From Lachnospiraceae bacterium (GTDB lineage Bacteria > Bacillota > Clostridia > Lachnospirales > Lachnospiraceae), in assembly GCA_017453065.1 (NCBI GenBank), contig JAFTKW010000013.1:1-64000 (forward strand): DNA of 64,000 nucleotides, written 5' to 3'. Below are positions 1,043 to 14,681 of the stretch, piece after piece (position 1 is the stretch's first letter; every line of letters begins with the position of its first letter). The translations under genes were made by a program, and so were the position numbers. Below the pieces are notes generated by a model. The model worked only from the letters and a program-made list of their open reading frames with translations. It ran no database searches and was not told the DNA's origin.

Positions 1043-1120
1043 AATCCTTTCCTAATTCTTTCCTTTTCCCCCTCCTTATGCTACTATGGATTTATCATAT
1101 ACATTGAAGGAGAGAATGTA

Positions 1121-2029
1121 ATGAACTGGCTAAATGCTTTTGAACTTATGTGCTACACCATAGTTGCGATTATGCTTGTAGATTTAATTCGTAAAAAAGA
1201 TTACAACAGTCTATTTACCTTTGGCTCCGCAACTATTGTTGGTTTTGTAATGGAACTATTAGCGGTGGCAGTAACAGATATATATTATTACAATCCAAAT
1301 TTTTGGTTAAACATTGGTAGTGAACCAAAACAGTTTCCTGTGTTTGGCGGTTTCATGTGGGGTGGGTTGACTGTTTGTGGAATCAAACTTGCTCAGAAAT
1401 TGAAGTTAAACAAAGTCATGACAGCTCTGTGTGCTGGAATGTTCATTGTGACAATGGATATTTTGCTGGATGTGGTTGCAATCAGACTGGATGGAGGCTT
1501 TTGGACCTGGGTTGGAAAACCTATTAACCTGGATATCACACAACATACCTTTATGAGTGTTATTTGGGTGAATTTCCTAGGCTACATGATAGAAACCCCT
1601 ACGGTGGTTTGGCTTACTTTAAATAAGCGCGAAAAAGTGGCAGAAAAGGACTGGAAAAAGCAGACAAGTTCTATGGTGCTTATAGCATTAGGAGCGATTT
1701 TGGTTACGGCGATAGGTAGCCTGATTGCGCTGGGATTAAACGCACTTACAGATGATTGGTTTGCTTGCGCTACGTTTGTAGTATTGTGGGTGTCTTTGGT
1801 GACACTTTTAGTAAAACATTGTTTGAAACAGAAATTGCGAATTGCCAAACCAGGTAGATGGAATTATCCGATGCTATTATTCTGGATGGCTATGTATGCG
1901 TATTGCATAGTAGCAATCATAGGGTTAGGAATTCATGTGGCATGCCCTTGGCTTTTGGTAGTAGGAATCATATTTGCTACGGCGACGGTTTTGTGTGCTA
2001 TGTTGGAAGATATAAGGATGAATGTGTAA
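1121..2029 (+). CDS. Multi-pass membrane protein, unknown function
   Basis: I do not recognise this protein with confidence. The 302 residues carry about eight or nine hydrophobic segments (roughly 4-22, 33-53, 72-90, 98-118, 143-165, 183-206, 214-232, 250-270, 274-294), so it is an integral membrane protein. The segment DILLDVVAIRLDGGFWTW (about 109-126), with acidic residues just before a Gly/Trp turn, is reminiscent of carotenoid-biosynthesis-type membrane proteins (CruF-like), but that is only a resemblance. The ATG at 1121 has GAAGGAGAG upstream. It is followed by an FMN split-barrel protein after 27 nt, possibly in the same transcript. Confidence 0.6.
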   Translation: MNWLNAFELMCYTIVAIMLVDLIRKKDYNSLFTFGSATIVGFVMELLAVAVTDIYYYNPNFWLNIGSEPKQFPVFGGFMWGGLTVCGIKLAQKLKLNKVMTALCAGMFIVTMDILLDVVAIRLDGGFWTWVGKPINLDITQHTFMSVIWVNFLGYMIETPTVVWLTLNKREKVAEKDWKKQTSSMVLIALGAILVTAIGSLIALGLNALTDDWFACATFVVLWVSLVTLLVKHCLKQKLRIAKPGRWNYPMLLFWMAMYAYCIVAIIGLGIHVACPWLLVVGIIFATATVLCAMLEDIRMNV

Positions 2030-2512: not shown

Positions 2513-2686
2513 ACTTGAAGTTGGCTTGTTGGACAGATTGACAAATTTGAAGTTGTCGAGGCAGCGGAAAAAGAAGCGGCTGCGAAGCAGACAATTTTTT
2601 TTCCTGCCGAGATACCGACAAAATCGTAAAGCGCGTAGCGCGATAGGCACGAAGTGACTGGATTTTGGAGGGGAAGCACTTGCTTT

Positions 2687-2942
2687 GCGCACCAAATCCT
2701 GAAAATAGCGATTTAGTGCGCTGGGTTTCCTAACTTATGTAAACCGACTTGCGCACCAAAAATCTATAAACTCGATTTGGTGTGCAGAATAATTCAATTC
2801 TGTCGGTATATAGTCAATATCTCGTCATTTTATTGACAGTTTGGCACACCAAATCCTGGAAATAGCAATTTGGTGCGCATTTCATACAAATATAACCTCA
2901 AATTCTGCACACCAAATACGACAAATCGGCTATTTGGTGTGC
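2687..2942 (+). repeat. Array of four same-stem hairpins in element A
   Basis: Four inverted repeats of 35-36 nt at 2687-2721, 2751-2785, 2844-2878 and 2907-2942. All have stems of the form GCRCACCAAAT / ATTTGGTGYGC and different 10-12 nt loops. Gaps are 29, 58 and 28 nt. The 58-nt gap holds a different hairpin (GTCAATA/TATTGAC, 2813-2837). Loops and spacers differ between units while stems are nearly constant. Confidence 0.85.
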
Positions 2943-3120
2943 AAACCAATCTTTGAGCATAACAATTGAAGTATTATGCAAGAGTACCTAGCATACAGCT
3001 GAGCCAGGCCCAGCTCGCGTCCAGCGATGCTGACCGCTCGCTGCGTGGCTTCGTGAAAGAAATACCTCCAAAATCCAGTCACTCTGTGCCTGCCGTGCTT
3101 CGCACTTATGATTTTGTCGG

Positions 3121-3182
3121 TATCGCGCCAGGAAAAGCAAATACTTGCATAGCAAGTGCTTGCTTTTCCCTTGAGCGCGATA
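3121..3182 (+). repeat. Right-terminal double hairpin of element A
   Basis: Outer stem TATCGCGC (3121-3128) pairs perfectly with GCGCGATA (3175-3182). An inner stem of about 18 bp (GGAAAAGCAA... with ...TTGCTTTTCC, 3131-3169) sits inside it. AATCCCAATTT follows directly. Element B has the same layout with a differently spelled but equally paired outer stem. Confidence 0.8.
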
Positions 3183-3220
3183 AATCCCAATTTCATAGAA
3201 CAAAGAAAGGAAATAAGACA

Positions 3221-3838
3221 ATGAAAGTAATATTATTAAATGGTAGCCCAAAAGCAAATGGAAACACAGCGCTCTCACTTGAAGAGATGGTGAAAATATT
3301 CCAGGAAGAGAATATTGAGACAGAGATAGTGCAGGTGGGCAATCAAGCAATCCGTGGATGCTGCGCGTGCATGTACTGCGCAAAGGAAGGCAAGTGCGTC
3401 TTTGATGATTTGGTAAATGAAACTGCAACCAAACTGAAAGAGTGCGATGGCATCGTGGTAGCAAGCCCAGTCTATTATGCTTCTGCCAATAGTACACTGA
3501 CAGCTTTCTTGGATAGACTCTTTTATAGTACGAGCTTCGATAAGCGCATGAAAGTAGGAGCAAGTGTTGCAGTGGCTAGACGCGGCGGATGTTCGGCGAC
3601 CTTTGATCAGCTCAACAAATACTTTACTATCAGTGGAATGCCCGTGGCATCCAGCCAGTATTGGAACAGTGTACATGGTGGTGCACCAGGACAGGCGCAG
3701 GAGGATGCAGAGGGTCTGCAGACCATGCGTACTCTTGCGAGAAACATGAGCTTCTTGATGAAAAGCATAGTGCTTGGCAAAGAGAAGTATGGTTTACCAC
3801 AGCAGGAACCACACCAGTGGACCAACTTTATTCGATAA
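3221..3838 (+). CDS. Flavodoxin-fold NAD(P)H-dependent oxidoreductase
   Basis: A 205-residue flavodoxin-like reductase (NADPH-dependent FMN reductase / flavodoxin_2 superfamily). The N-terminal VILLNGSPKANGNTA loop binds the FMN phosphate. ASPVYYASANSTLTAFLDR (about residues 86-104) is the second flavin loop, and RRGG near 115 is typical. Cysteines in GCCACMYCAKEGKC (about 46-59) are seen in the iron-sulfur flavoprotein-like branch. I place the start at 3221, not at the in-frame ATG at 2966: AAAGAAAGG lies just upstream, the FMN motif then starts at residue 3, and the 85-residue extension would be repeat element A. Confidence 0.88.
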   Translation: MKVILLNGSPKANGNTALSLEEMVKIFQEENIETEIVQVGNQAIRGCCACMYCAKEGKCVFDDLVNETATKLKECDGIVVASPVYYASANSTLTAFLDRLFYSTSFDKRMKVGASVAVARRGGCSATFDQLNKYFTISGMPVASSQYWNSVHGGAPGQAQEDAEGLQTMRTLARNMSFLMKSIVLGKEKYGLPQQEPHQWTNFIR

Positions 3839-3840
3839 AT

Positions 3841-3869
3841 TTGCTTTTTTTCGATAAAAAGGTTACAAT
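3841..3869 (+). promoter_or_regulatory. Predicted sigma-A promoter
   Basis: TTGCTT and TACAAT separated by 17 nt, starting two nt after the reductase stop codon. It would drive the conserved hypothetical gene at 3925 and possibly the genes after it. Confidence 0.5.
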
Positions 3870-3924
3870 ATAAGTAATTATGGGGCATTTTACCCATATA
3901 GTACATGAAATAGGGTGACAGCGG

Positions 3925-4446
3925 ATGGATTCGAAATTTATAGCTTGCGTGAAACAACAGATGAATATGCATCCTTCTATGGAGCCTCAGGACATGTACA
4001 AACTTTGCTATCAGGTAGCTTTTGGCGCAGAGCATATGCTTTTGGATGAAGAGAGAGCATGGAGATATTTGCAGGCTGAATTTGAACAGGTGAAGCCAGA
4101 CTTGCATTGGCCACTGGTAGAGTGGTTAAGTGAGGGCGTTGCCAGAGTAAACCTTTCTACTTACAAGGCAAAGGGGTTGCCATTAGAACTATTGTTTGAG
4201 CTGTTCGTAGAAGGAGCAAGAGGCTTTGACGGTAGCGAAGAAGAATTAGATTTGTGTATTGGCATTGTGACAGAAATGGCTGCGAATGGAGAACTAGGAT
4301 TTCAGAAGCAGGAATGGCAAGCATTCTGCGAGGGAAGACCGTTAGGGCCAGTGCATCACAGCCAAAACTACAAATTGAAAGAAGAGCCTGCTTACAGAGT
4401 AATCCGTGGGCAGAGCGTCAGACGGATAGACGATTTAGTGGGGTAA
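3925..4446 (+). CDS. Conserved hypothetical protein
   Basis: A 173-residue, soluble, mostly helical protein that I cannot name. Visible features are the segment LCYQVAFGAEHMLLDEERAW (about 27-46), an acidic middle and a C-terminal HHSQNYKLKEEPAYRVI stretch (about 141-157). No signal peptide or membrane segment. A weak AGGGTGA precedes the ATG. A predicted promoter lies 56 nt upstream. It is followed after 57 nt by the EAL-domain gene. Confidence 0.6.
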   Translation: MDSKFIACVKQQMNMHPSMEPQDMYKLCYQVAFGAEHMLLDEERAWRYLQAEFEQVKPDLHWPLVEWLSEGVARVNLSTYKAKGLPLELLFELFVEGARGFDGSEEELDLCIGIVTEMAANGELGFQKQEWQAFCEGRPLGPVHHSQNYKLKEEPAYRVIRGQSVRRIDDLVG

Positions 4447-4503
4447 ACAAGGGACTACAAAGCAACAAGTTGACTAGATTGACACGACTCAGAAAGGGAA
4501 AAT

Positions 4504-6435
4504 ATGATAGGCTACATATACTATTATGATATCGCGTCTTTGGTTTTTTGTTCTTTTCTATTAATCTATTTTCTTTACCGCAGAAACGTTCGTAATATGC
4601 AGACTGGAATGTATGGAATTCTGCTTTCTGCAGTGTGGATTTCTACTGCGCTGAGCGTTTTGGTGGTAGTCGGATATGAGAAACTGTTTAGTGTTGGCAT
4701 TTGGCTACCTTACTGGATAGAGGCTTTATATTCCATATTTTTAGATTTGTCTATTGCGGCTTTCTACTGCTATATTATGGTGCTAACCAAGGGCAAGAAG
4801 AATCTGCATAGATGGGATGTTGCGAGAATCGTCACGCCCTATGCTATAGCAGTTATTTTGCTGATTACAAACTATTGGACCCATTTTGTGTTTGAGATTG
4901 ATCCTGTAACGGGAGTCCTTACATTTAGGACAGGCAAGTATATATTGTTTGTTCTTTCAGGGATTTATATGACAATGGGAGCAATACAGGCATATAGGAA
5001 TAGAGGAATTCTAACCAAGGGACAGAAGTGGGCAGTGGTTATTTTGTGCGCTTTGGGTTCCAATGCGATTTTCTTACAGTGTACAATCTTGCCACAGGTT
5101 CTTTTGATGCAGATTGCGGCAACTTTATCTTCTATGTCATTGTATTTTACACTGGAGAATCCAGGCGAATATAGAGACAAACTGCTGAATACATGGAATC
5201 GTTCAGGCTTTACGAGTATTACATCTTCAGAAATGGATATGAACAGAGCTTTTTCCGTATTGGCGATGCGGCTAGACGGAGTGAAATACATCAACGAGAG
5301 TCTGGGAGTAACTTTTGGAGATAAGGTCCTTAAGGAGTTCAGCGACTTCCTGTCAGAGATTTCTCCGTCCAACACGGTATTTCATATTTCAGGTATGCGA
5401 TTTGCTGTGTTGAGCAGAAAAAATAAATTTGCATTAGAACCAATTGTGGACAAACTGAGAGCTAAGTTTGATCAACCATTAGTGATAGATGGAATTTCTG
5501 TTAATTTAAAATTAACGATGTGCGTCATGAGATATCCAGAGCAAGTTTCGGGAAGACAGGATTTGATGGATATCATCAAATATGTAATGAGAGAGCAGGA
5601 CGTGGATGGTGGTAGTGTTCTGATTGAATTGACGGATGAGATATTGGAGCGCAGACATCGTGAAAATGCTGTACTTAAGGTAATTAAGGATGCAATCTTA
5701 AACGATGGTTTTGAGATGCATTACCAGCCAATTTATTCTGTAGAAAAAGGTAGATTTGCTTCTGCAGAGGCTTTGATTCGACTAAAAGAAACGTCTCTTG
5801 GCTATGTAGGGCCAGATGAGTTCATTCCATTGGCTGAGCAAAATGGAATGATTTTGGAAATTGGAAACTTTGTATTTAGGGATGTGTGCCGCTTTATGTC
5901 AGAGAATAGACTCTGGGAAAAAGGGGTAGATTATATAGAAGTAAACCTTTCTGTAATGCAGTGTATGCAGGATACGTTGCATGCAAAATTGGTTCAGATT
6001 ATGGATGAATATCAAATTCCGTACGATCGTATTAATTTAGAGATTACGGAGACGGCAGCAGTGGTTTCCAATGATGTCTTGAAGAAAAATATGGACAAAC
6101 TGGTGGACAAAGGAATTACCTTTGCGCTAGACGACTTTGGTACTGGTTATTCTAACATTTCACATATCTTCAACTACTCCTTTGATATGATCAAATTGGA
6201 TAAATCAATGGTGTGGTCATCAATGGAAAGCGACAAAGCAAAAACCATTTTGAAGCATACCATAAAGATGCTGAAAGAAATGGATATGCATATCGTGGCT
6301 GAAGGAGTAGAGACTCAGGATCAGGCAGATGCACTTGAGGCAATGGGATGTGATTACTTCCAGGGATATCTATATTCCAGACCAGTAGATGAAGAGAATT
6401 TCAAACTACTGTTGGGAATGGATTCTAAGAAATAA
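4504..6435 (+). CDS. Membrane-bound EAL phosphodiesterase with degenerate GGDEF
   Basis: A 643-residue c-di-GMP enzyme. Residues 1-215 hold about six or seven membrane helices. Residues about 250-375 form a GGDEF fold whose signature is replaced by SGMRF (about 296-300), so it is unlikely to make c-di-GMP. Residues about 390-640 form an EAL domain with the residues needed for catalysis visible: the EAL triad near 422, VNLS, EITETA, DDFGTGYSNI near 543, KLDKS, AEGVE and QGYLYSRP. The prediction is a membrane sensor that degrades c-di-GMP. AAAGGGA precedes the ATG. The aldolase gene follows after 25 nt, probably by chance of packing. Confidence 0.9.
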   Translation: MIGYIYYYDIASLVFCSFLLIYFLYRRNVRNMQTGMYGILLSAVWISTALSVLVVVGYEKLFSVGIWLPYWIEALYSIFLDLSIAAFYCYIMVLTKGKKNLHRWDVARIVTPYAIAVILLITNYWTHFVFEIDPVTGVLTFRTGKYILFVLSGIYMTMGAIQAYRNRGILTKGQKWAVVILCALGSNAIFLQCTILPQVLLMQIAATLSSMSLYFTLENPGEYRDKLLNTWNRSGFTSITSSEMDMNRAFSVLAMRLDGVKYINESLGVTFGDKVLKEFSDFLSEISPSNTVFHISGMRFAVLSRKNKFALEPIVDKLRAKFDQPLVIDGISVNLKLTMCVMRYPEQVSGRQDLMDIIKYVMREQDVDGGSVLIELTDEILERRHRENAVLKVIKDAILNDGFEMHYQPIYSVEKGRFASAEALIRLKETSLGYVGPDEFIPLAEQNGMILEIGNFVFRDVCRFMSENRLWEKGVDYIEVNLSVMQCMQDTLHAKLVQIMDEYQIPYDRINLEITETAAVVSNDVLKKNMDKLVDKGITFALDDFGTGYSNISHIFNYSFDMIKLDKSMVWSSMESDKAKTILKHTIKMLKEMDMHIVAEGVETQDQADALEAMGCDYFQGYLYSRPVDEENFKLLLGMDSKK

Positions 6436-6460
6436 ATTTGTGTTTTGAAAGAGGAATTAT

Positions 6461-7441
6461 ATGAGACAGAATAGACAAGGCAGTCTGGTGTCTTTTAGAC
6501 CAGATATTCGATTGGTAGACTGCACTATGCGAGATGGTGGCTTGGTCAACAACTTTGGATTTACAGACGAATTTGTAAAGAATTTATATGAAGCCAATCT
6601 GGCAGCAGGTGTGGACTACATGGAGTTTGGATACAAAGCTTCTACTTCGGTGTTTGATCCGACTAAATTTGGCAAGTGGAAGTTCTGTAAGGAAGAAGAT
6701 ATCAGACGTATTGTGGGTGCCAATGACACAGATATGAAAATTGCCGTCATGGCGGATGTGGGTAGAACAGATTACAAAAATGACATTCTTCCTGCCAAAG
6801 ACAGTGTCATTGATATGATTCGAGTGGCTACTTATATCAACACGATTCCTACAGCCATCGCCATGCTGGAGGATGCCAAGGAAAAGGGATATGAGACTAC
6901 GGTCAATGTCATGGCCATTTCAAAGGTGGGCGGCGATGAACTAGACGGTGGATTGGAGTTACTGGCAAATAGTAGCGTTGATGTCATTTATCTGGTAGAC
7001 AGTTTTGGCTCATTTTATCCAGAGCAGATTGAGCGCTTGATGGACAAATATTTAAATATAGCAGCAAAGTACAACAAAAAGATTGGCGTGCATGCTCACA
7101 ATAATCAGCAGCTTGCATTTGCCAATACGATAGAAGCACTTTCTTTGGGCGCAAGTTATTTGGATGCTACTGTATGCGGTATGGGACGTGGCGCAGGAAA
7201 CTGCTTTATGGAACTGCTGCTAAGTTTCCTTCGAAATCCGAAGTATGACAAGGTGCCTTTGATGAATTTCATTCAGCAGAATATGCTTAAGATGAAAGAG
7301 GAAGCAGTATGGGGATATGATATACCTTATATGCTCACTGGTATTATGAATGCACATCCATCTTCAGCAATTCAGTTTGTGAAAGAAGGCAGAACAGATT
7401 ATACTACATTTTATCATCAGTTGATGGAAGAAGGGTTTTGA
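6461..7441 (+). CDS. HMGL-type aldolase / pyruvate carboxyltransferase-like protein
   Basis: A 326-residue TIM-barrel protein of the HMG-CoA lyase-like family (homocitrate synthase, 4-hydroxy-2-oxovalerate aldolase). The metal and catalytic residues are seen in VDCTMRDGGLVNNFGF (about 19-34), in VYLVDSFGS-type strand 6 and in GVHAHNNQQLAFANT (about 206-220). No DmpF-type dehydrogenase lies next to it, so the substrate is unknown; clostridial relatives often sit in sugar or capsule clusters. GAAAGAGG lies upstream of the ATG. Two dyads and a terminator follow. Confidence 0.8.
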   Translation: MRQNRQGSLVSFRPDIRLVDCTMRDGGLVNNFGFTDEFVKNLYEANLAAGVDYMEFGYKASTSVFDPTKFGKWKFCKEEDIRRIVGANDTDMKIAVMADVGRTDYKNDILPAKDSVIDMIRVATYINTIPTAIAMLEDAKEKGYETTVNVMAISKVGGDELDGGLELLANSSVDVIYLVDSFGSFYPEQIERLMDKYLNIAAKYNKKIGVHAHNNQQLAFANTIEALSLGASYLDATVCGMGRGAGNCFMELLLSFLRNPKYDKVPLMNFIQQNMLKMKEEAVWGYDIPYMLTGIMNAHPSSAIQFVKEGRTDYTTFYHQLMEEGF

Positions 7442-7530
7442 TGCAACTGACCACAATATCTTGTGGTCGGATTAGATAAAGACACAAGAGCGTTAAAATG
7501 GTTAAAAACGTGATAAATACGCGTGTTTAG

Positions 7531-7567
7531 AGGACATTCTCCTTGAATTGGAGAGTGTTCTTTTTTT
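7531..7567 (+). terminator. Intrinsic terminator
   Basis: AGGACATTCTCC pairs with GGAGAGTGTTCT (two G-U pairs) across a 7-nt loop and is followed by seven T. It separates the aldolase gene from nrdD. A second small hairpin (GACCACAA/TTGTGGTC, 7449-7468) lies right after the aldolase stop codon. Confidence 0.85.
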
Positions 7568-7606
7568 GACAATTAGGATTTTCTTACTATATTTAGCGTT
7601 TTAGGC

Positions 7607-7634
7607 TTGAAAAAAACCCAACATATAGTATAAT
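7607..7634 (+). promoter_or_regulatory. Predicted promoter of nrdDG
   Basis: TTGAAA and TATAAT separated by 16 nt, about 42 nt upstream of the nrdD start codon. A small dyad (ACACG...CGTGT, 7641-7655) lies just downstream and could be an operator, but it does not match the NrdR box consensus. Confidence 0.65.
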
Positions 7635-7675
7635 GGAACTACACGGGACACGTGTGGATTGGGAGGGCTATACGA

Positions 7676-9832
7676 ATGAAAGTTATTAAAAGAAACGGTT
7701 CAGAAGTCGAATTTGATATTGATAAAATCCGTAACGCGATTGCAAAGGCTAATAAGGCTGCAATTAGAGAGGAATTGACTCAGACTCAGATCGATGAGAT
7801 TGCCGATTATATTAACTTCAAGTGTAGCAAGATGAATCGTGCTATCTCTGTAGAAGAAATGCAGGATATGGTAGAGAACCAGATTATGGCACAGGGTGCA
7901 TTCAACGTAGCGAGATGTTATGTAAGATATCGTTATACCAGAACCCTGGTTAGAAAGAGCAACACTACAGACGATCGTATTTTGTCTTTGATTGAATGTA
8001 ATAACGAAGAAGTTATGCAGGAGAACTCTAACAAGGATCCTATTATCAATAGTGTGCAGAGAGACTATATGGCTGGTGAGGTAAGTAAAGACTTGACCAG
8101 AAGAATGCTTCTTGCAGAGGATATCGTAAAAGCGGATCAGGAAGGCTTGATTCATTTCCATGATTCAGATTACTTCGCACAGCATATGCACAACTGTGAT
8201 TTGGTTAACCTAGAGGATATGCTTCAAAATGGCACTGTTATCAGTGAGACCTATATAGACAAGCCTCATAGTTTTTCAACTGCATGTAATATAGCTACAC
8301 AGATTATTGCACAGGTTGCAAGTAATCAGTATGGTGGACAGAGTATTTCATTAACACATCTTGCTCCATTTGTGCAGGTATCCAGAGAAAAAATCCGTAA
8401 ACAGGTGCTTGAAGATGCAGAAATCATGGGCATGACACCTACGGATGATATTATAGATAAAGTAGTAGAGAAGAGATTGCTTGCAGAAATTGAAAAGGGC
8501 GTACAGACCATTCAATATCAGGTGATCACACTTATGACTACCAATGGACAGGCTCCATTCCTTACTGTATTTATGTATTTGAATGAAGCAAAGACTCCGC
8601 AGGAAAAGAAGGACTTGGCGCTTATTATTGAAGAGATGTTGAAGCAACGTATTCAGGGCGTTAAGAATGAGAATGGTAGCTGGATTACTCCAGCATTCCC
8701 AAAATTGATTTATGTTTTGGAAGAAGACAATATCCGTGAAGGTACAGAATATTTCTATCTGACAGAGCTTGCTGCGAAATGTACAGCAAAGCGTATGGTT
8801 CCTGACTATATTTCTGAGAAGAAGATGAAGGAACTTAAAGAAGGCAACTGTTTCCCTGTTATGGGATGTAGAAGTGCTCTTTCTGCATGGAAGAATGCGG
8901 ATGGCGAGTACAAATTCTACGGAAGATTTAATCAGGGTGTTGTAACCATCAACTTGGTTGACGTGGCACTTTCTTCCGGCGGAGACATGAATAAGTTCTG
9001 GAAGATTTTTGATGAGAGACTGGACCTTTGCTATAGAGCATTGATGACACGTCACAACAGATTAAAAGGAACTTTGTCCGATGCGGCTCCAATTTTGTGG
9101 CAACATGGTGCGTTGGCAAGACTTGAAAAAGGAGAGCCAATTGACAGATTGCTCTTTGGTGGATACTCCACAATTTCTCTTGGCTATGCAGGACTTTGCG
9201 AATGTGTTAAGTATATGACTGGTAAGTCTCATACTTCCCCAGAAGCAAAACCATTTGCTCTGGAAGTAATGAAATATATGAATGATGCTTGTGATAAGTG
9301 GAAAGAAGAGACCAATATTGGATTTAGCGTATACGGATCTCCAATTGAAAGTACCACATATAAGTTTGCTAAATGCTTGCAGAGACGCTTTGGCATTATC
9401 AAGGGCGTTACAGACAAGGGTTATATTACAAACAGTTACCATGTAAATGTTACAGAACCAATTGATGCATTTACAAAACTGAAATTTGAATCTGAATTCC
9501 AGGCACTTTCTTCTGGCGGAGCTATCAGCTATGTGGAAGTACCAAATATGCAGGACAATATCCCTGCTGTTATCTCAGTGATCCAGTTCATCTATGACAA
9601 CATTATGTATGCAGAACTCAATACAAAGAGTGATTTCTGCCAGGCTTGTGGATATACTGGTGAAATCCAGATTATTGAGGAAGGTGGCAAACTGATTTGG
9701 GAATGCCCACACTGCAAGAACAGAGATCAGAAGTTGCTTAACGTAGCGAGACGTACTTGTGGATATATTGGAACACAGTTCTGGAATCAGGGACGTACCC
9801 AAGAGATTAAAGAAAGGGTGTTACATCTGTAA
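7676..9832 (+). CDS. nrdD: Anaerobic ribonucleoside-triphosphate reductase, class III
   Basis: Oxygen-sensitive glycyl-radical enzyme that reduces ribonucleoside triphosphates to dNTPs. The 718 residues comprise an N-terminal ATP-cone (KVIKRNGSEVEFDIDKI, about 2-18, to about 95), the ten-stranded barrel, a C-terminal zinc site (CQACGYTG ... CPHC) and the glycyl-radical loop RRTCGYIGTQFWNQGR near the end. I start at 7676 because GGGAGG (7661-7666) is well placed for this ATG; the in-frame ATG at 7652 would add eight residues before the ATP-cone. The stop codon abuts the nrdG start, so the two are co-translated. Confidence 0.97.
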   Translation: MKVIKRNGSEVEFDIDKIRNAIAKANKAAIREELTQTQIDEIADYINFKCSKMNRAISVEEMQDMVENQIMAQGAFNVARCYVRYRYTRTLVRKSNTTDDRILSLIECNNEEVMQENSNKDPIINSVQRDYMAGEVSKDLTRRMLLAEDIVKADQEGLIHFHDSDYFAQHMHNCDLVNLEDMLQNGTVISETYIDKPHSFSTACNIATQIIAQVASNQYGGQSISLTHLAPFVQVSREKIRKQVLEDAEIMGMTPTDDIIDKVVEKRLLAEIEKGVQTIQYQVITLMTTNGQAPFLTVFMYLNEAKTPQEKKDLALIIEEMLKQRIQGVKNENGSWITPAFPKLIYVLEEDNIREGTEYFYLTELAAKCTAKRMVPDYISEKKMKELKEGNCFPVMGCRSALSAWKNADGEYKFYGRFNQGVVTINLVDVALSSGGDMNKFWKIFDERLDLCYRALMTRHNRLKGTLSDAAPILWQHGALARLEKGEPIDRLLFGGYSTISLGYAGLCECVKYMTGKSHTSPEAKPFALEVMKYMNDACDKWKEETNIGFSVYGSPIESTTYKFAKCLQRRFGIIKGVTDKGYITNSYHVNVTEPIDAFTKLKFESEFQALSSGGAISYVEVPNMQDNIPAVISVIQFIYDNIMYAELNTKSDFCQACGYTGEIQIIEEGGKLIWECPHCKNRDQKLLNVARRTCGYIGTQFWNQGRTQEIKERVLHL

Positions 9833-10354
9833 ATGAATTACGGTGAAATTAAAAAATATGACATTGCAGATGGCGAAGGCGTAAGAGTATCCCTGTTTGT
9901 ATCAGGCTGCACGCACCACTGCAAAGGCTGCTTTAACGCAGAGACATGGGACTTTAATTTTGGAAAACCGTTTACAGAGGAAACTATTTTAGAATTATTG
10001 GAGGCACTTAAGCCAGATTATATTACTGGCTTAACCCTCCTTGGGGGAGAACCATTTGAGCCTGCGAATCAGCGGGCTCTCTTGCCTTTTGTAAAGCGAT
10101 ACAAAGAAATGTTTCCTCACAAGACCATTTGGTGCTATACGGGCTACTCTTTGGAGACAGATTTGTTGGCAGAAAGTAGAGCTAGATGTGAATGTACCGA
10201 TGAGATGCTTAGTTACATCGACGTCTTGGTAGATGGGGAGTTTGTGGAAGAACTAAAAGATATTAGACTGATATTCCGTGGATCTTCCAACCAAAGAGTG
10301 CTGCGACTTCAGGAGACTTTGTCTACTGGCCAGCCAGTATGGTGGGAAAAATAA
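9833..10354 (+). CDS. nrdG: Anaerobic NTP reductase activating protein
   Basis: Radical SAM activase that installs the glycyl radical on NrdD. The 173-residue protein has the cluster-binding CTHHCKGCF motif (C-x3-C-x2-C, about residues 26-34) and the GGEPFEPAN SAM-binding motif (about 72-80). Its ATG directly follows the nrdD stop, with no gap. The pair indicates anaerobic DNA precursor synthesis. A terminator follows after 18 nt. Confidence 0.97.
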   Translation: MNYGEIKKYDIADGEGVRVSLFVSGCTHHCKGCFNAETWDFNFGKPFTEETILELLEALKPDYITGLTLLGGEPFEPANQRALLPFVKRYKEMFPHKTIWCYTGYSLETDLLAESRARCECTDEMLSYIDVLVDGEFVEELKDIRLIFRGSSNQRVLRLQETLSTGQPVWWEK

Positions 10355-10372
10355 TCTATTTGCAACATAGCG

Positions 10373-10402
10373 AAAAAGAGTCGTAAAAGCGACTCTTTTT
10401 TT
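10373..10402 (+). terminator. Intrinsic terminator of nrdDG
   Basis: AAAAAGAGTCG pairs with CGACTCTTTTT across a 6-nt loop, with a run of T running on to 10402. Confidence 0.9.
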
Positions 10403-10415
10403 GTGATTTTATACA

Positions 10416-10444
10416 TTGGCTTTGCGTATTCCTTGGAATATAAT
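10416..10444 (+). promoter_or_regulatory. Predicted sigma-A promoter
   Basis: TTGGCT and TATAAT separated by 17 nt, 59 nt upstream of the chosen permease start codon. Confidence 0.65.
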
Positions 10445-10503
10445 AAAGCAGTTGGTTTATATATTAATGATTGATAAAGCGTACTTGCTTAGAGAGGCAG
10501 ATT

Positions 10504-11805
10504 ATGCAGTTAGTAGCTATTGTGGCAATCGTAATGTGTGTAACATTGATTGCATCTATTTTACTCAAGCCAAATGTAAATATTAAAGGGACAAACGTGG
10601 GAACATACTGGATTGTGGCATTGGCAGGAGCGTTGGCACTTCTTTTGACACGGAGTATCAGCCTTAAAGAAATTGGAGCAGGACTTGTAGCAGACACAGC
10701 AATCAATCCTTTAAAGATATTGGTGCTCTTTTTGTCTATGACAGTGTTATCTATCTTCTTGGATGAATTGGGCATGTTCCGCTATCTGGCCAATATAACC
10801 TTGAAAAAGGCGAAGGGAAGTCAGAAGACGCTGTTTTTTTATTTGTATGTGATTGTTTCTATCTTAACGGTCTTTACATCCAATGATATTATTATTCTCA
10901 CCTTTACACCGTTTATCTGCTATTTTTCAAAAAATGCAAAGATTAATCCAATGCCCTATTTGTTTACAGAATTTGTGGCTGCCAACACCTGGAGCATGGC
11001 ATTGATTATTGGAAACCCTACCAATGTTTATTTGGCTACAGCAAACAATATAAATTTCATTCAATATATGTCAGTAATGCTTCTGCCAACAGCTATGGGT
11101 GGAATCGTTGCAATGCTGGTGTTATATCTGATTTTCAGAAAGACGTTAGAACAGCCTTTGGAGCAAAGCAGTGATGAGTTTGAAATTCAGGACAAAGGAT
11201 TGCTTGCTATTGGAGTAGCACACCTTGCTGTTTGTACAGTGCTGCTGGTGATATCCTCCTATGTTGGCCTTGAAATGTGGCTGATTACTTTGTGCTTTGC
11301 GCTTAGTTTGTTCTTGGTGAGTTCTATTTACTGCTTCTTTACCAAAAAGAGTTTAGGAATCTTGTGGGCGACCTTAAAGAGAGCCCCTTGGGAACTTATT
11401 CCATTTGTAATCGCCATGTTCGTTTTCGTACTTGCCTTCGACAAGTGCCAACTGACTGATATGATTGGACATCTGCTTGAAAACGAGCATGTCATATTTC
11501 GTTATGGCATAGTATCCTTCCTGACTGCGAACCTAGTAAACAACATCCCAATGAGCGTATTGTTCAGTTCTGTTGTGCAGGAATTAGATCCACAGGTGCT
11601 GATGCAGGGAGTCTATGCAGCAATCGTAGGTTCCAATGTGGGAGCGTTCTTTACTCCAATTGGAGCGCTTGCTGGAATTATGTGGAGTGGAATTTTGAAA
11701 AAGCATGATGTGAAGATGAATTTTGCATCTTATATTAAATACGGAACTGCGATTTCTGTACCAACATTACTTATGACCTTGTTGGGATTGCAGATTGTTT
11801 TTTAA
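10504..11805 (+). CDS. ArsB/SLC13-type permease
   Basis: A 433-residue membrane transporter of the ion-transporter superfamily (ArsB, NhaD, DASS/SLC13). About 11 hydrophobic segments are visible. Two re-entrant-loop-like motifs with duplicated character are present: TSNDIIILTFTPFICYF (about 122-138) with NTWSMALIIGNPTN, and LVNNIPMSVLFSS (about 352-364) with GSNVGAFFTPIGALAGI (about 383-399). These are the substrate and cation sites in this superfamily. Substrate is unknown (organic anion, arsenite or antiport). ATG at 10504 is preferred over TTG at 10471 because AGAGAGG lies 6-7 nt upstream. Single-gene transcript with its own promoter and terminator. Confidence 0.82.
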   Translation: MQLVAIVAIVMCVTLIASILLKPNVNIKGTNVGTYWIVALAGALALLLTRSISLKEIGAGLVADTAINPLKILVLFLSMTVLSIFLDELGMFRYLANITLKKAKGSQKTLFFYLYVIVSILTVFTSNDIIILTFTPFICYFSKNAKINPMPYLFTEFVAANTWSMALIIGNPTNVYLATANNINFIQYMSVMLLPTAMGGIVAMLVLYLIFRKTLEQPLEQSSDEFEIQDKGLLAIGVAHLAVCTVLLVISSYVGLEMWLITLCFALSLFLVSSIYCFFTKKSLGILWATLKRAPWELIPFVIAMFVFVLAFDKCQLTDMIGHLLENEHVIFRYGIVSFLTANLVNNIPMSVLFSSVVQELDPQVLMQGVYAAIVGSNVGAFFTPIGALAGIMWSGILKKHDVKMNFASYIKYGTAISVPTLLMTLLGLQIVF

Positions 11806-11818
11806 TATTTCAAAGAAA

Positions 11819-11849
11819 ATGGCCGGTGGATCAAAATCCTCCGGCCATT
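11819..11849. terminator. Bidirectional terminator
   Basis: ATGGCCGG-t-GGAT pairs with ATCC-t-CCGGCCAT across a CAAA loop, flanked by A and T runs. It lies between the convergent permease and SDR genes and can serve both. Confidence 0.8.
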
Positions 11850-11899
11850 GTTATTTTTGTGTATCAGCTAGTATTAGAGAGGCTAGAGGGCCAAGTGTA

Positions 11900-12613
11900 C
11901 TAAAAACCGCCAGACATAGTGATGATTTGTCCCGTCAGGTACGCAGGCGAATTTGCAAGTTGCCAAATCATTTCGGCGGCTTCTTTGGTAGTGCCAAATC
12001 TTCCAGCTGGAATTTCGTCGATGAGAGCCTGCCTTTCGTTTGCATCCAAATGTCCATTCATATCGGTGTCAATGACTCCAAAGGCAATAGCATTGACAGC
12101 AATGTTTGATGGAGCCAATTCCTTGGCTAAAGCCTTGGTGAAGGTATTTACACCACCTTTTGACGCACTGTATGCGACCTCAAAGGAGCCCCCGTCGTTT
12201 CCCCAGATGGAGGAGATGTTGATGATTCGTCCCGCACCCTTGGAGAGCATTCCAGGAATACATAATTTGCAAGTATAAAACATGGAGCTGAGATTGGTGT
12301 TTAGTACCTGATCCCACTCTGCCACAGTCATATCCTGTAAAAGCCCATAGAAGGAAATGCCCGCGTTGTTTACCACTACATCAAGAGGAGGAAGATTCTG
12401 AAACATTTCTGCCACTTTGTCATAAGCCTTGGCATCGCACTGGAAGATATAACAAGGGGCCTTCCCCATGGCATCAATTTCGTCTTTGACTTCCTTTAAT
12501 TGATATATGGAGTTAGAACAGGTTAAGTAGGTTGTATATCCTTCTTTCGCAAACTTCAGAGCGGCTTCCTTTCCGATGCCCCTAGATGCGCCTGTGATTA
12601 ATACGGTTTTCAT
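11900..12613 (-). CDS. Short-chain dehydrogenase/reductase (FabG-like)
   Basis: A 237-residue classical SDR. Visible are the cofactor motif TGASRGIG (about 7-14), NNAG (about 86-89), the catalytic Ser in ISSIWG (about 138) and the Tyr-Lys pair in YSASKGG (about 151-157). It resembles 3-oxoacyl-ACP reductases, but no fatty-acid genes are adjacent, so the substrate is open. It reads left, convergent with the permease. AGAAGGAG lies just upstream of the ATG on the minus strand. Confidence 0.85.
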   Translation of the reverse strand: MKTVLITGASRGIGKEAALKFAKEGYTTYLTCSNSIYQLKEVKDEIDAMGKAPCYIFQCDAKAYDKVAEMFQNLPPLDVVVNNAGISFYGLLQDMTVAEWDQVLNTNLSSMFYTCKLCIPGMLSKGAGRIINISSIWGNDGGSFEVAYSASKGGVNTFTKALAKELAPSNIAVNAIAFGVIDTDMNGHLDANERQALIDEIPAGRFGTTKEAAEMIWQLANSPAYLTGQIITMSGGF

Positions 12614-12727
12614 AGTGTACTCCTTCTGATGAGCTTTTAAGTGAATTAGTTTGTTTTAATATCTAGATTGCTTTCTGAATTATATTTTAACAAAGAAAAA
12701 GACGCGTTTCAACATGGGAAAAGAACG

Positions 12728-12756
12728 TTGTGTTAGCAATGAAAAGAATATATAAT
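12728..12756 (+). promoter_or_regulatory. Predicted promoter of the methyltransferase gene
   Basis: TTGTGT and TATAAT separated by 17 nt. The transcription start would be near 12763, which leaves a normal leader only for the start codon at 12834. Confidence 0.65.
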
Positions 12757-12833
12757 CTAATAGAAAAGAGATGAAAGAATCGAAAAACTTCATTATGAAT
12801 GAGGAAAGAAACTGGAGAGGTCAGGTAAAATAT

Positions 12834-13451
12834 ATGCTTAACAATAAAGGTTTTGATTTGTGGGCAGATGATTATGATAAAAGTGTGGGGCTATCTGACG
12901 AAGATGGGACATATCCATTTGCTGGATACAAAGCGATTCTAAATGAGATATACAACCGTGTTTTGTCTGCTCCTGGGAGAAGAGTGCTAGACATTGGATT
13001 TGGGACAGGAACACTTACTACGAAATTGTATGAGCAGGGATGTGATATTTTTGGACAAGATTTTTCTGGAAGAATGATTGAACTTGCAAAGGAAAAGATG
13101 CCAACGGCAAAGTTGTTTCGGGGAGATTTTTCAGAAGGCTTGGTGGCACCTTTGATGGAGCATAAATATGATGCAATTATTGCCACCTATTCCTTACATC
13201 ATCTTACAGATGAGCAGAAGGTGAGATTTATTGCTAAGTTGCATTCCTTGTTGAATGATAGAGGCAGCATTTATATTGGCGATGTTGCATTTTTTACTCG
13301 TCAGGACATGGAAAAGTGTATGGTGGAAGCTGGCGATGAATGGGATGATGAGGAGATCTATTTTGTGTTTGAAGAAATAAGACAAGCATTCCCAAACATG
13401 GAGTTTGAACAGATGTCAAGTTGCGCAGGGCTTCTGGCTTTGCACAGATAA
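12834..13451 (+). CDS. Class I SAM-dependent methyltransferase
   Basis: A 205-residue small-molecule methyltransferase. Motif I is VLDIGFGTGTLT (about 51-62), followed by the acidic strand-2 residue in GQDFSG, then DFSEG and the ATYSLHHLTDEQK block (about 119-131). I prefer the ATG at 12834: GGAGAGG lies upstream, the promoter start point is near 12763, and clostridial relatives begin with MLNNKGFDLWADDYD-like sequence. The upstream ATG at 12771 has a poor ribosome binding site and would start almost at the transcription start. Substrate unknown. Confidence 0.82.
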   Translation: MLNNKGFDLWADDYDKSVGLSDEDGTYPFAGYKAILNEIYNRVLSAPGRRVLDIGFGTGTLTTKLYEQGCDIFGQDFSGRMIELAKEKMPTAKLFRGDFSEGLVAPLMEHKYDAIIATYSLHHLTDEQKVRFIAKLHSLLNDRGSIYIGDVAFFTRQDMEKCMVEAGDEWDDEEIYFVFEEIRQAFPNMEFEQMSSCAGLLALHR

Positions 13452-13541
13452 GTTCTGTGGCTTATGAGTGTAAGAGATTCGAAAGTTTGAATAGAGAAGG
13501 ATGGAGTTTGCAAGCAAGTTTGACGGTTAGGAGATGTTACA

Positions 13542-13868
13542 ATGGAAGTTAGTATTAGAGATTATGAAGAATATTTATATGACCATTATAAGGAACATGG
13601 GATTGATGCTAGTTTGTTTATGAAATTAGTTGAAGAAGTAGGGGAAGTAGCAGAAGTGCTAAATAAGCGTGATGGAAGAAAGGCTTCTGATAATGAAGAT
13701 TTAAAATGTCAATTAGCAAACGAATTGGTTGATGTTGTTCATTATGCTTTTGCTATCGCCTCACTAAATCAAATTGATTTGAATGAAGCTATTTTGGATA
13801 AAGACAGAATAGCATCTATTAAATACAAGCATGAATTAAACCTTGAGCAGTTTTTGCTAAGGCGATAA
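13542..13868 (+). CDS. MazG-like nucleotide pyrophosphohydrolase domain protein
   Basis: A 108-residue, all-helical protein of the MazG/dUTPase-zeta type. The metal-binding EEVGEVAE (about 27-34) and the downstream ANELVDVVHY (about 60-69) give the E-x2-E and E-x2-D pairs that bind Mg2+. It should hydrolyse a non-canonical NTP; the substrate is unknown. AGGAG lies about 10 nt upstream of the ATG. Its stop codon overlaps the first bases of repeat element B (TAAATTTGAAG), so gene and element abut exactly. Confidence 0.8.
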   Translation: MEVSIRDYEEYLYDHYKEHGIDASLFMKLVEEVGEVAEVLNKRDGRKASDNEDLKCQLANELVDVVHYAFAIASLNQIDLNEAILDKDRIASIKYKHELNLEQFLLRR

Positions 13869-13985
13869 ATTTGAAGTTATCGAGGCAGCGGAAAAAGAAG
13901 CGGCTGCGAAGCAGACATTTATTTTTCCTGCCGAGATACCGACAAAATCGTAAAGCGCGTAGTGACTGGATTTTGGAGAGGAAAA

Positions 13986-14240
13986 TTGGGCATCAGAAGA
14001 TAAATATTTCTATATCATGCCCAAAAGAGAACGAAAAACCAGTATTTTGCCAAGGCGGAAGGGGTTTTTGGGCATAGGAGAGATTAAATCTTAGCTGTAT
14101 GCCCAAAATATCAAATATTTGGGCACTGAAGGAAAAGAATTATTACTCTATGCCCAAAAAGCACATGAAACCGTGAATATATAAACTTTTTTCGGGCTTT
14201 TGGGCATGGAAGAGATGTTATTTCATACCTATGCCCAAAA
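13986..14240 (+). repeat. Array of four GGGCAT hairpins in element B
   Basis: Inverted repeats at 13986-14024, 14066-14108, 14118-14158 and 14198-14240. Each is TTGGGCA(T) paired with (A)TGCCCAA with loops of 23-27 nt. Stems are constant and loops differ. Element C carries the first unit almost unchanged plus a unit that begins like unit 2 and ends like unit 4. Confidence 0.85.
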
Positions 14241-14268
14241 CGATAGATGAAGGGGTACTAGTTACAGC

Positions 14269-14599
14269 TCTGAGCCGGGCCCAGCTCGCGTCCAGCGATG
14301 CTGACCGCTCGCTGCAAAAGCTTCGCCACATACATCTTCGCACGAATATGTCTACATGTGAGCAAACTCCCGTAAAAACACCTCCTAAGCCCATCCGCTA
14401 CGCGTATGCCGTAGCTCTGAGTGCTACTAGTGGTTCTGAGCCGGGCCCAGTTCGCGTCCAGCGATGCTGACCGCTCGCTGCGTGGCTTCGCCACATACAT
14501 CTTCGCGCGAATATGTCTACGTGTGAGCAAGCTCCCGTAAAAACACCTCCTAAGCCCATCCGCTACGCGTATGCCGTAGCACGATGTGCTACTAGTGGC
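14269..14599 (+). repeat. 166-bp tandem duplication in element B
   Basis: Two head-to-tail copies starting at 14269 and 14435, both opening TCTGAGCCGGGCCCAG and closing GTGCTACTAGTGG, with about a dozen differences. The first 55 nt of each copy match element A at 2999-3053. The copies have diverged, so the duplication is not a very recent event. Confidence 0.85.
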
Positions 14600-14607
14600 T
14601 TAGTCGG

Positions 14608-14669
14608 TGACGGGCCGCCAAAAGTAAATGCTCGCAAAGCGAGCGCTTCCTTTTGCCTACAGCCCGTCA
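14608..14669 (+). repeat. Right-terminal double hairpin of element B
   Basis: Outer stem TGACGGGC (14608-14615) pairs perfectly with GCCCGTCA (14662-14669). The inner stem runs from 14618 to about 14656 with an AAA loop (GCTCGC/GCGAGC at its tip). It is the positional counterpart of 3121-3182 in element A. Three of the eight outer pairs differ from A, and each is compensated. Confidence 0.8.
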
Positions 14670-14681
14670 AATCCCAATTTG
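14662..14681 (+). repeat. 20-bp direct repeat, left copy
   Basis: GCCCGTCAAATCCCAATTTG, identical to the copy at 15367-15386. It is the right half of element B's outer stem plus the AATCCCAATTTG end. Confidence 0.9.

Follow-up and report, generated by a model that had tools for sequence, protein, structure and literature searches.

Covarying two-hairpin repeat units of Lachnospiraceae build larger composite elements and may move as folded single-stranded DNA

Two repeat elements in a 64,000-nucleotide stretch of a Lachnospiraceae bacterium genome (assembly GCA_017453065.1, contig JAFTKW010000013.1, positions 1 to 64,000; hereafter the window) are larger structures assembled from a small folded repeat unit of gut bacteria. 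Element A (2543–3193) and element B (13867–14681) were both confirmed at these positions, where a preliminary description had placed them, and the right-terminal hairpin of each proves to be half of a two-hairpin unit of about 120 nt that is also present, inverted, at the left end. Stem sequences of the unit vary between copies with pairing retained, and in the widespread single-unit copies its 5′ boundary mostly coincides with a −10 box, a stop codon or a terminator of the host. We tentatively assign A and B, as composites, to a family of non-autonomous mobile repeats that fold as single-stranded DNA (ssDNA) and use guide–target pairing. The repeat occurs in most sampled genomes of the group, with up to tens of detected matches in each, and modifies the boundaries of many host genes. 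Should the guide reading prove right, it adds another natural case in which DNA–DNA pairing chooses an insertion site, and it implies an unknown enzyme; in either case the covariance model of the unit can be used to annotate gut genomes.

Fold and covariation of the unit

The unit consists of hairpin 1, whose outer stem and long inner stem are capped by a triloop, followed by hairpin 2, which is a three-way junction. The right end of A, read on the minus strand, and its left end, read on the plus strand, fold to an identical layout. Hairpin 2 of A reads CC-GA-CAAAATC, two small hairpins and GATTTTG-GA-GG, its junction standing above the tandem GA/GA. In hairpin 1, the inner stem has an almost invariant AAGCG..CATTT core and, in most units, a GAA triloop; because most units were found through an exact core pattern, core conservation partly reflects how the set was chosen, while conservation of stems and flanks is unaffected.

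In a fitted alignment (A4; 69 rows, 63 distinct), 42 of the 46 pairs had changed on both sides, and the covariation score was 0.484, compared with 0.151 in shuffled and 0.04–0.07 in slid alignments. The outer four pairs were paired in 241 of 246 cells. Since A4 leans on structure, the count was redone on 50 units aligned by sequence only, in which 28 pairs could be placed. Here 94.2% of cells were paired, against a shuffled mean of 79.9% (standard deviation 0.6) and 41–47% when partner columns were slid by 1–3. Both sides had changed in 23 of the 28 pairs, including all 13 pairs of helices 1 and 3, with a score of 0.373 vs 0.127 shuffled and 0.05–0.08 slid, and none of 500 shuffles attained the observed value in any of five measures. 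The inner core was nearly invariant, with a G.U pair in 49 of the 50 units.

A and B had been proposed as members of a structured repeat family with compensatory change, and this now holds well past two copies. The covariance model called for at the time has been built (R1, from 11 units, including both units of A and one from another family of the order), the pair counts are those given above, and loss of covariation in further copies, named beforehand as the refuting outcome, was not observed. The step from paired change to selection on a folded RNA or DNA carries over only in part: the compensatory change is real, and an alternative reading of it exists, with the outer stem of the widespread single-unit copies extending into host sequence.

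The loop of hairpin 1 is C(GAA)G in 55 of 63 distinct units, and the small hairpins of hairpin 2 each have a GNA triloop closed by C-G or G-C in 30 of 59; the right units of A and B carry TAT and TTT loops there rather than GNA. The stability of d(GCGAAGC) reportedly goes back to Hirao 1994, and the RNA form of the GCGAAGC loop is much less stable than the DNA form. In DNA, d(GCGAAGC) is described as extraordinarily stable (PMC6582339; this and the other articles given by PMC number are cited from excerpts). The loop type favours a DNA fold over an RNA fold, short of proof.

Sites occupied by the unit

Boundaries were read on 153 units from many species. Of 203 cmsearch matches, 128 were kept as sufficiently long, correctly oriented and distinct, and 35 were added from loci read directly; the final set leaves out duplicates and units with less than 130 nt upstream, and tandem neighbours and orthologues are each counted individually. 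An exact TATAAT lies at the 5′ boundary of 58 of the 153 units, compared with 13 of 1793 shifted control windows, and a TATAAT within one mismatch at 100 (controls: 152 of 1793). A stop codon, defined as one that closes an open reading frame (ORF) of 60 or more codons at most 6 nt away, stands at the 5′ boundary of 44 units (85 of 1793 controls), and a terminator hairpin with T-tract lies directly 5′ of 11 (11 of 1793 controls). These classes overlap, since TATAAT contains TAA; 24 units sit on the stop of an ORF of 100 or more codons without an exact TATAAT, and the exact reversed box ATTATA is found at the 5′ boundary of 10.

When any of these features was counted (−10 box with at most one mismatch, exact reversed box, stop codon or terminator), the 5′ side had one in 130 of 153 units and the 3′ side, read on the opposite strand, in 28 of 147. 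Upstream of 42 TATAAT boxes, a TTGACA-like box with at most two mismatches stood at the usual distance in 19, compared with 15% of 294 controls. The boxes at the unit boundary belong to promoters.

Units with the reversed −10 box (ATTATACCAT) at the 5′ end are seen at L100, L107, L131, L133, L177, L195 and L203; some of them stand in tandem with the ATTATACCAT string between units. At L344 in genome G102, two units (1467–1590 and 2024–2144) lie in one ribosomal protein operon, on the rpsM and rpsK stop codons. An orthologous unit behind a terminator differs between L212 (7690–8000) and L153, with about 32 extra nt in the right arm of the outer stem in L212, and this insert contains the hairpin GGAAATC TGC GATTTCC.

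Complement of the site within the unit

Directly before the NYGA that opens hairpin 2, 92 of the 153 units carry the exact complement of their own first four bases, against 16 of 1530 control trials made with the four bases of another unit. The first four bases are TAAT in 48 units, TATC in 13, TAAC in 13, TATA in 9 and others elsewhere, with GTAG in 2 of 153. In 33 of the 153 units they are the TAAT of an exact TATAAT box, and the partner position of these 33 holds an exact ATTA in 26, GTTA (one G.T pair) in four, ATTA before an altered NYGA in two, and neither in one (L215). ATTA occupies the partner position in 2 of the 105 units that do not start with TAAT.

Transcription starts some 6–9 nt behind a −10 box, so the outermost pairs of the 33 TATAAT units cannot form in RNA made from that promoter. 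An outer stem that includes host bases is consistent with DNA-level pairing to the insertion site, or with use of that site as a template. This argument is silent on transcripts of A and B themselves, because both arms of their outer stems lie inside the element, and in the units of A and B the candidate guide was not found as a pairing with host bases. The boundary sequence was repeated behind the unit (at least 11 of 14 positions) in 16 of 150 units and 40 of 1500 controls, and many units are followed, by eye, by a decayed second copy.

Gain of units at orthologous loci

Units stand at unrelated loci and are not present at the orthologous loci of relatives; several of the locus pairs compared across genomes aligned only by chance. 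The gene beside one unit (L070, in G091) has matches in dozens of genomes. Among 29 other loci of this type, the 28 that could be anchored showed no unit pattern in the 500 nt checked; one lacked an anchor, nine lacked an alignable promoter, nine were clear and 10 weak. An earlier comparison of ten loci had left five unoriented and two of the remaining five without an alignable promoter. The nine relatives with a clearly orthologous promoter have no unit and carry TATAAT (6) or TATACT (3) followed by unrelated bases; since they carry the orthologous box without the unit, the −10 box preceded the unit. In one of the nine (L260, G068) a different small hairpin lies directly behind the box, with a 54-base unit-like match on the opposite strand, and in G032 a unit is found at the divergent promoter of the same intergenic region.

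At the rpsM–rpsK junction, G102 (L344) has a unit positioned on the stop codon of rpsM, as does G099 (L086), judged by its flank. Ten of 26 loci compared here could not be anchored; among the 16 readable relatives, one has a collapsed unit form (L361, G032) and 15 have no unit. Five of the 16 (L368, L376, L377, L380 and L385) have the rpsM 3′ end, with its stop codon, repeated in tandem, and in these five duplications a small hairpin is made of rpsM sequence and its inverted copy, with a 3–4-nt loop. The flanks of element A match relatives only from the start of the downstream gene, at 66–74% identity, so that no empty site is readable there, and the L080 locus (G003) has almost no flank match among 99 genomes.

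Architecture of elements A and B

A and B each consist of two inverted unit copies that enclose a palindrome (hairpin) array. In A (plus strand, 2543–3193), a plus-strand unit is followed by the array, a GC-rich module and an inverted, minus-strand unit. The left unit (2554–2672, plus strand; R1, E 6.5e-20) comprises hairpin 1 with tandem GA and then the three-way-junction hairpin 2. The array (2687–2943, plus strand) holds four palindromes with CACCAAAT-type stems, computed where perfect stems reach 7 or more and otherwise delimited by eye, and it precedes a GC-rich module common to B (3001–3044, plus strand). The inverted right unit (3064–3182, minus strand; R1, E 9.8e-26, itself in the R1 training set) holds the terminal hairpin of the preliminary description, and the outer right end AATCCCAATTT closes the element (3183–3193, plus strand).

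B (13867–14681, plus strand) is a composite like A. Its left unit (13878–13980, plus strand; R1, E 7.6e-14) has a shortened hairpin 2, and its array of TTGGGCAT-type palindromes (13986–14240, plus strand) has members at 13986–14024 and 14066–14108 (computed) and at 14118–14158 and 14199–14240 (by eye). Two copies of the GC-rich module (14272–14315 and 14438–14481, both plus strand) precede the inverted right unit (14545–14669, minus strand; R1, E 1.3e-14) and the outer right end AATCCCAATTT (14670–14680, plus strand). The GC-rich module, GAGCCRGGCCCAG.TCGCGTCCAGCGATGCTGACCGCTCGCTGC, is thus present once in A and twice in B, and it is also seen in L042 and L047.

The right-terminal outer stem pairs TATCGCGC (3121–3128) with GCGCGATA (3175–3182) in A, and TGACGGGC (14608–14615) with GCCCGTCA (14662–14669) in B. 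The compensatory differences first noticed between these stems are borne out, with three of eight pairs differing between A and B and every change mirrored on the partner arm. In hairpin 2 of the right unit the whole stem is exchanged, with CTAAGCC/GGCTTAG in B vs CAAAATC/GATTTTG in A. The unit begins 11 nt inside the element in both; the outer left end of B overlaps the stop codon (13866–13868) of the upstream ORF, whereas the outer end of A overlaps none. In A, B and a third composite of the same genome (L041), the inverted units at both ends form terminal inverted repeats, as in a classical miniature inverted-repeat transposable element, and single-unit copies are without these. An intrinsic-terminator signature (GC stem plus T-run) was not found in the elements beyond the inner stem of hairpin 1, the only part that scores, which gives two terminator-like sites in A (0.9 expected) and two in B (1.0 expected).

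Copies and distribution

The source genome (G000, in which the window covers positions 1–64000 of contig C10) has nine unit matches at E ≤ 0.001 with R1. It also holds the third intact composite, L041 (a plus and a minus unit, contig C16), a minimal form of about 85 bp (L044) and several rearranged copies. R1 matched in 78 of 101 genomes of the same genus (E ≤ 0.01), with up to 29 matches per genome; these per-genome counts are lower bounds, at most 12–35 candidates having been scored per genome under strict filters, and they are inflated where a match is the weaker opposite strand of the same hairpin. Among good-quality genomes of the genus, 41 of 48 had matches. In a phylum sample of 299 genomes (12 candidates scored per genome), R1 matched in three, the source genome and two more from its family, and a DNA search gave clear two-hairpin units in two genomes from other families of the order (L029 and L032).

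An exact 23-base core pattern has at least 119 matching stretches in named assemblies. Among the 80 match titles listed, the family is Lachnospiraceae wherever it is given or implied by the genus, and the remaining titles read only Clostridiales, Eubacteriales, Clostridia, Clostridium, Bacillota or bacterium. Genome G091 holds 14 further units at separate loci, whose stems differ and whose layout is kept (by eye). A search of a plasmid collection with element B as the only query returned no match.

Several arrangements were seen around individual units. In L353 (G000:C44:79793-79917) a single unit directly 3′ of a T-run is followed by about 400 nt with a tandem palindrome array (52-bp period, 5.8 copies, TTGGGCAC stems) that resembles the B array. 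In L352 (G032:C9), the unit at 2022–2136 is followed by several tandem copies, of about 54 nt, of only the 3′ part of hairpin 2, up to the next gene. In L061 of G032 (1093–1258, minus strand), a TwoAYGGAY RNA (Rfam RF01731, 97.5 bits) lies about 240 nt upstream of a unit.

Searches for a partner gene or a known RNA

A recurrent mobile gene beside the units was rejected: among 761 ORFs of 100 or more amino acids at L100–L218, none was mobile by eye in the 14 largest clusters, and the largest cluster comprised ABC ATPases at 16 loci. Two inverted units flanking a gene were likewise rejected, with no full inverted pair in 20 regions scanned with R1 (ORFs not called); at L346, part of a hairpin 2 lies in inverted orientation about 500 nt away from the unit. 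The window had no Rfam match at gathering score, six loci searched at E ≤ 1 gave only TwoAYGGAY above the cut-off, outside the unit, and a tRNA-like gene in the window was rejected. The elements had originally been said to correspond to no named element, and this agrees with our searches: the units have no Rfam match, the core motif was not found in the open-licence PMC papers searched, and no description of these repeats was found in that open-licence PMC literature.

Interpretation and alternatives

We favour the reading of A and B as composite copies of an ssDNA-folding mobile repeat family with slightly less than even confidence, a level set by the failure of the A and B units at the boundary test. 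The unit of about 120 nt would be the working part of the family. It would move as a folded single DNA strand and insert 3′ of a short target that is single-stranded at the time, as within a transcription bubble. The tetranucleotide behind hairpin 1 would pair with the target as a guide, like that of IS608, and the enzyme would act in trans. Tandem copies could then collapse as their repeated small hairpins slip against one another. On this reading A and B would each be a pair of inverted units with an array of palindromes between them, and the kinship of their units suggests that they move likewise. Inserted units that serve as 5′ leaders are compatible with the mobile-repeat reading.

A bolder extension is transposition without any recognised transposase, in which DNA base pairing inside the transcription bubble identifies the target: a tetranucleotide guide on a folded single strand would match an exposed −10 box or the T-tract of a paused polymerase, the element would insert directly behind it, host genes would in this way come to begin with a structured leader, and copies gaining new guides would open new classes of site. 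We regard this as improbable at present.

Several observations weigh against the mobile-repeat reading. The four units of A and B, whose ends are internal to a larger element, all fail this boundary criterion, and part of the TATAAT enrichment is built in because the modelled unit start includes TAAT. The exact complement is absent from 61 of the 153 units, and on the sequence-only alignment pairing of the four outermost positions is seen in 177 of 193 cells, a lower share than on the fitted one. Bases behind −10 boxes are not conserved and give no source for the inner part of the outer stem. A target duplication of fixed length was not seen among 150 units, and no Y1 transposase was found in the source genome or in the high-copy genomes G018, G036, G074, G076 and G004, nor a unit in any of 22 Y1 loci. 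A same-strand gene start lies within 400 nt of 105 of the 153 units, compared with 52 in the opposite direction, a bias that an RNA leader would show. Finally, template switching in this bacterial group could likewise generate paired arms.

The strand bias of gene starts bears on a possible but rather doubtful account, in which the unit is a cis-acting RNA leader, a module of the 5′ untranslated region that folds in the mRNA and controls its decay or translation; selection would then act on the RNA fold, and the position of the unit would be that of the transcript 5′ end. Units that stand directly behind promoters, and units retained at orthologous loci with changes in their stems (L154/L178, L104/L187 and L113/L197), agree with such a leader. 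Its difficulty lies in the 33 units that draw −10 box bases, untranscribed from that promoter, into their outermost pairs, in the 11 units directly behind terminators, in loops of DNA type and in the lack of an Rfam match. A DNA-level alternative, which we consider unlikely, is that the units derive from repetitive extragenic palindromes (REPs) or IS200/IS605 elements and owe their mobility to a Y1 (HUH) transposase, either one that many genomes no longer possess or one supplied by a rare donor. Strand-folding hairpins, a fixed orientation and the apparent retention of a short 5′ target resemble IS608 (PMC5934647), and Y1 genes (PF01797) occur in 20 of 61 genomes. The high-copy genomes without Y1 and the 22 unit-free Y1 loci nevertheless rule out this transposase as an obligate partner, the units carry neither a GTAG nor a CGTC tag, and their candidate guide lies 3′ of the hairpin, where that of IS608 lies 5′.

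It also seems unlikely that the covariation arose with neither selection nor a guide, through template switching or quasi-palindrome correction that copies host sequence in inverted form and writes changes in one arm across to the other. The tandem rpsM 3′-end copies with an inverted-copy hairpin, in five of 16 readable relatives, would be events of this kind, and an arm of A (TTGTC) matches GACAA in its own flank, where B and other copies read TTATC or CTATC (by eye). The conserved core, the loops and the GA/GA motif are, however, beyond the reach of arm correction alone, as is the one-sided anchoring on functional sites.

Comparison with known systems

Group IIC introns insert directly behind intrinsic terminators at sites chosen by pairing; the unit differs from them in having no Rfam group II match, in being far too short and in its occurrence also at −10 boxes and stop codons. 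The bcr1-like repeats of Firmicutes are not known to have sequence in common with the unit. They resemble the unit in being intergenic, structured, non-coding and multi-copy, and are listed for Bacillus (PMC2267715).

REPs share with the unit that they are small, dispersed, palindromic multi-copy repeats, and for some REP families no dedicated transposase exists (PMC3733652). REPs bear a GTAG or CGTC tag (PMC3733652) and measure 20–40 nt, whereas the unit is about 120 nt long, has no such tag, holds a fixed position at functional sites and varies freely in its stems. The association with REP-associated tyrosine transposases (RAYTs) that marks REPs was found neither in the Y1 gene survey nor at the 22 Y1 loci.

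IS608 inserts 3′ of a tetranucleotide that remains in its left flank; base pairing to a guide within IS608 selects this tetranucleotide, and an altered guide leads to an altered target (PMC5934647). The unit would resemble IS608 and the IS200/IS605 family (PMC5934647) in its proposed ssDNA hairpins and in the putative pairing of a left-flank tetranucleotide with an internal guide. It differs in that the IS608 guide lies 5′ of the hairpin and the complement in the unit 3′ of it, in that its second structure is a three-way junction, and in having no TnpA within or beside it. Some HUH relatives have atypical secondary structures (PMC6006769), and an unrecognised HUH enzyme is a possible mover. 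By analogy, the family would work like a strand-folding mobile repeat with guide–target pairing, and we do not place it within IS200/IS605 or REP.

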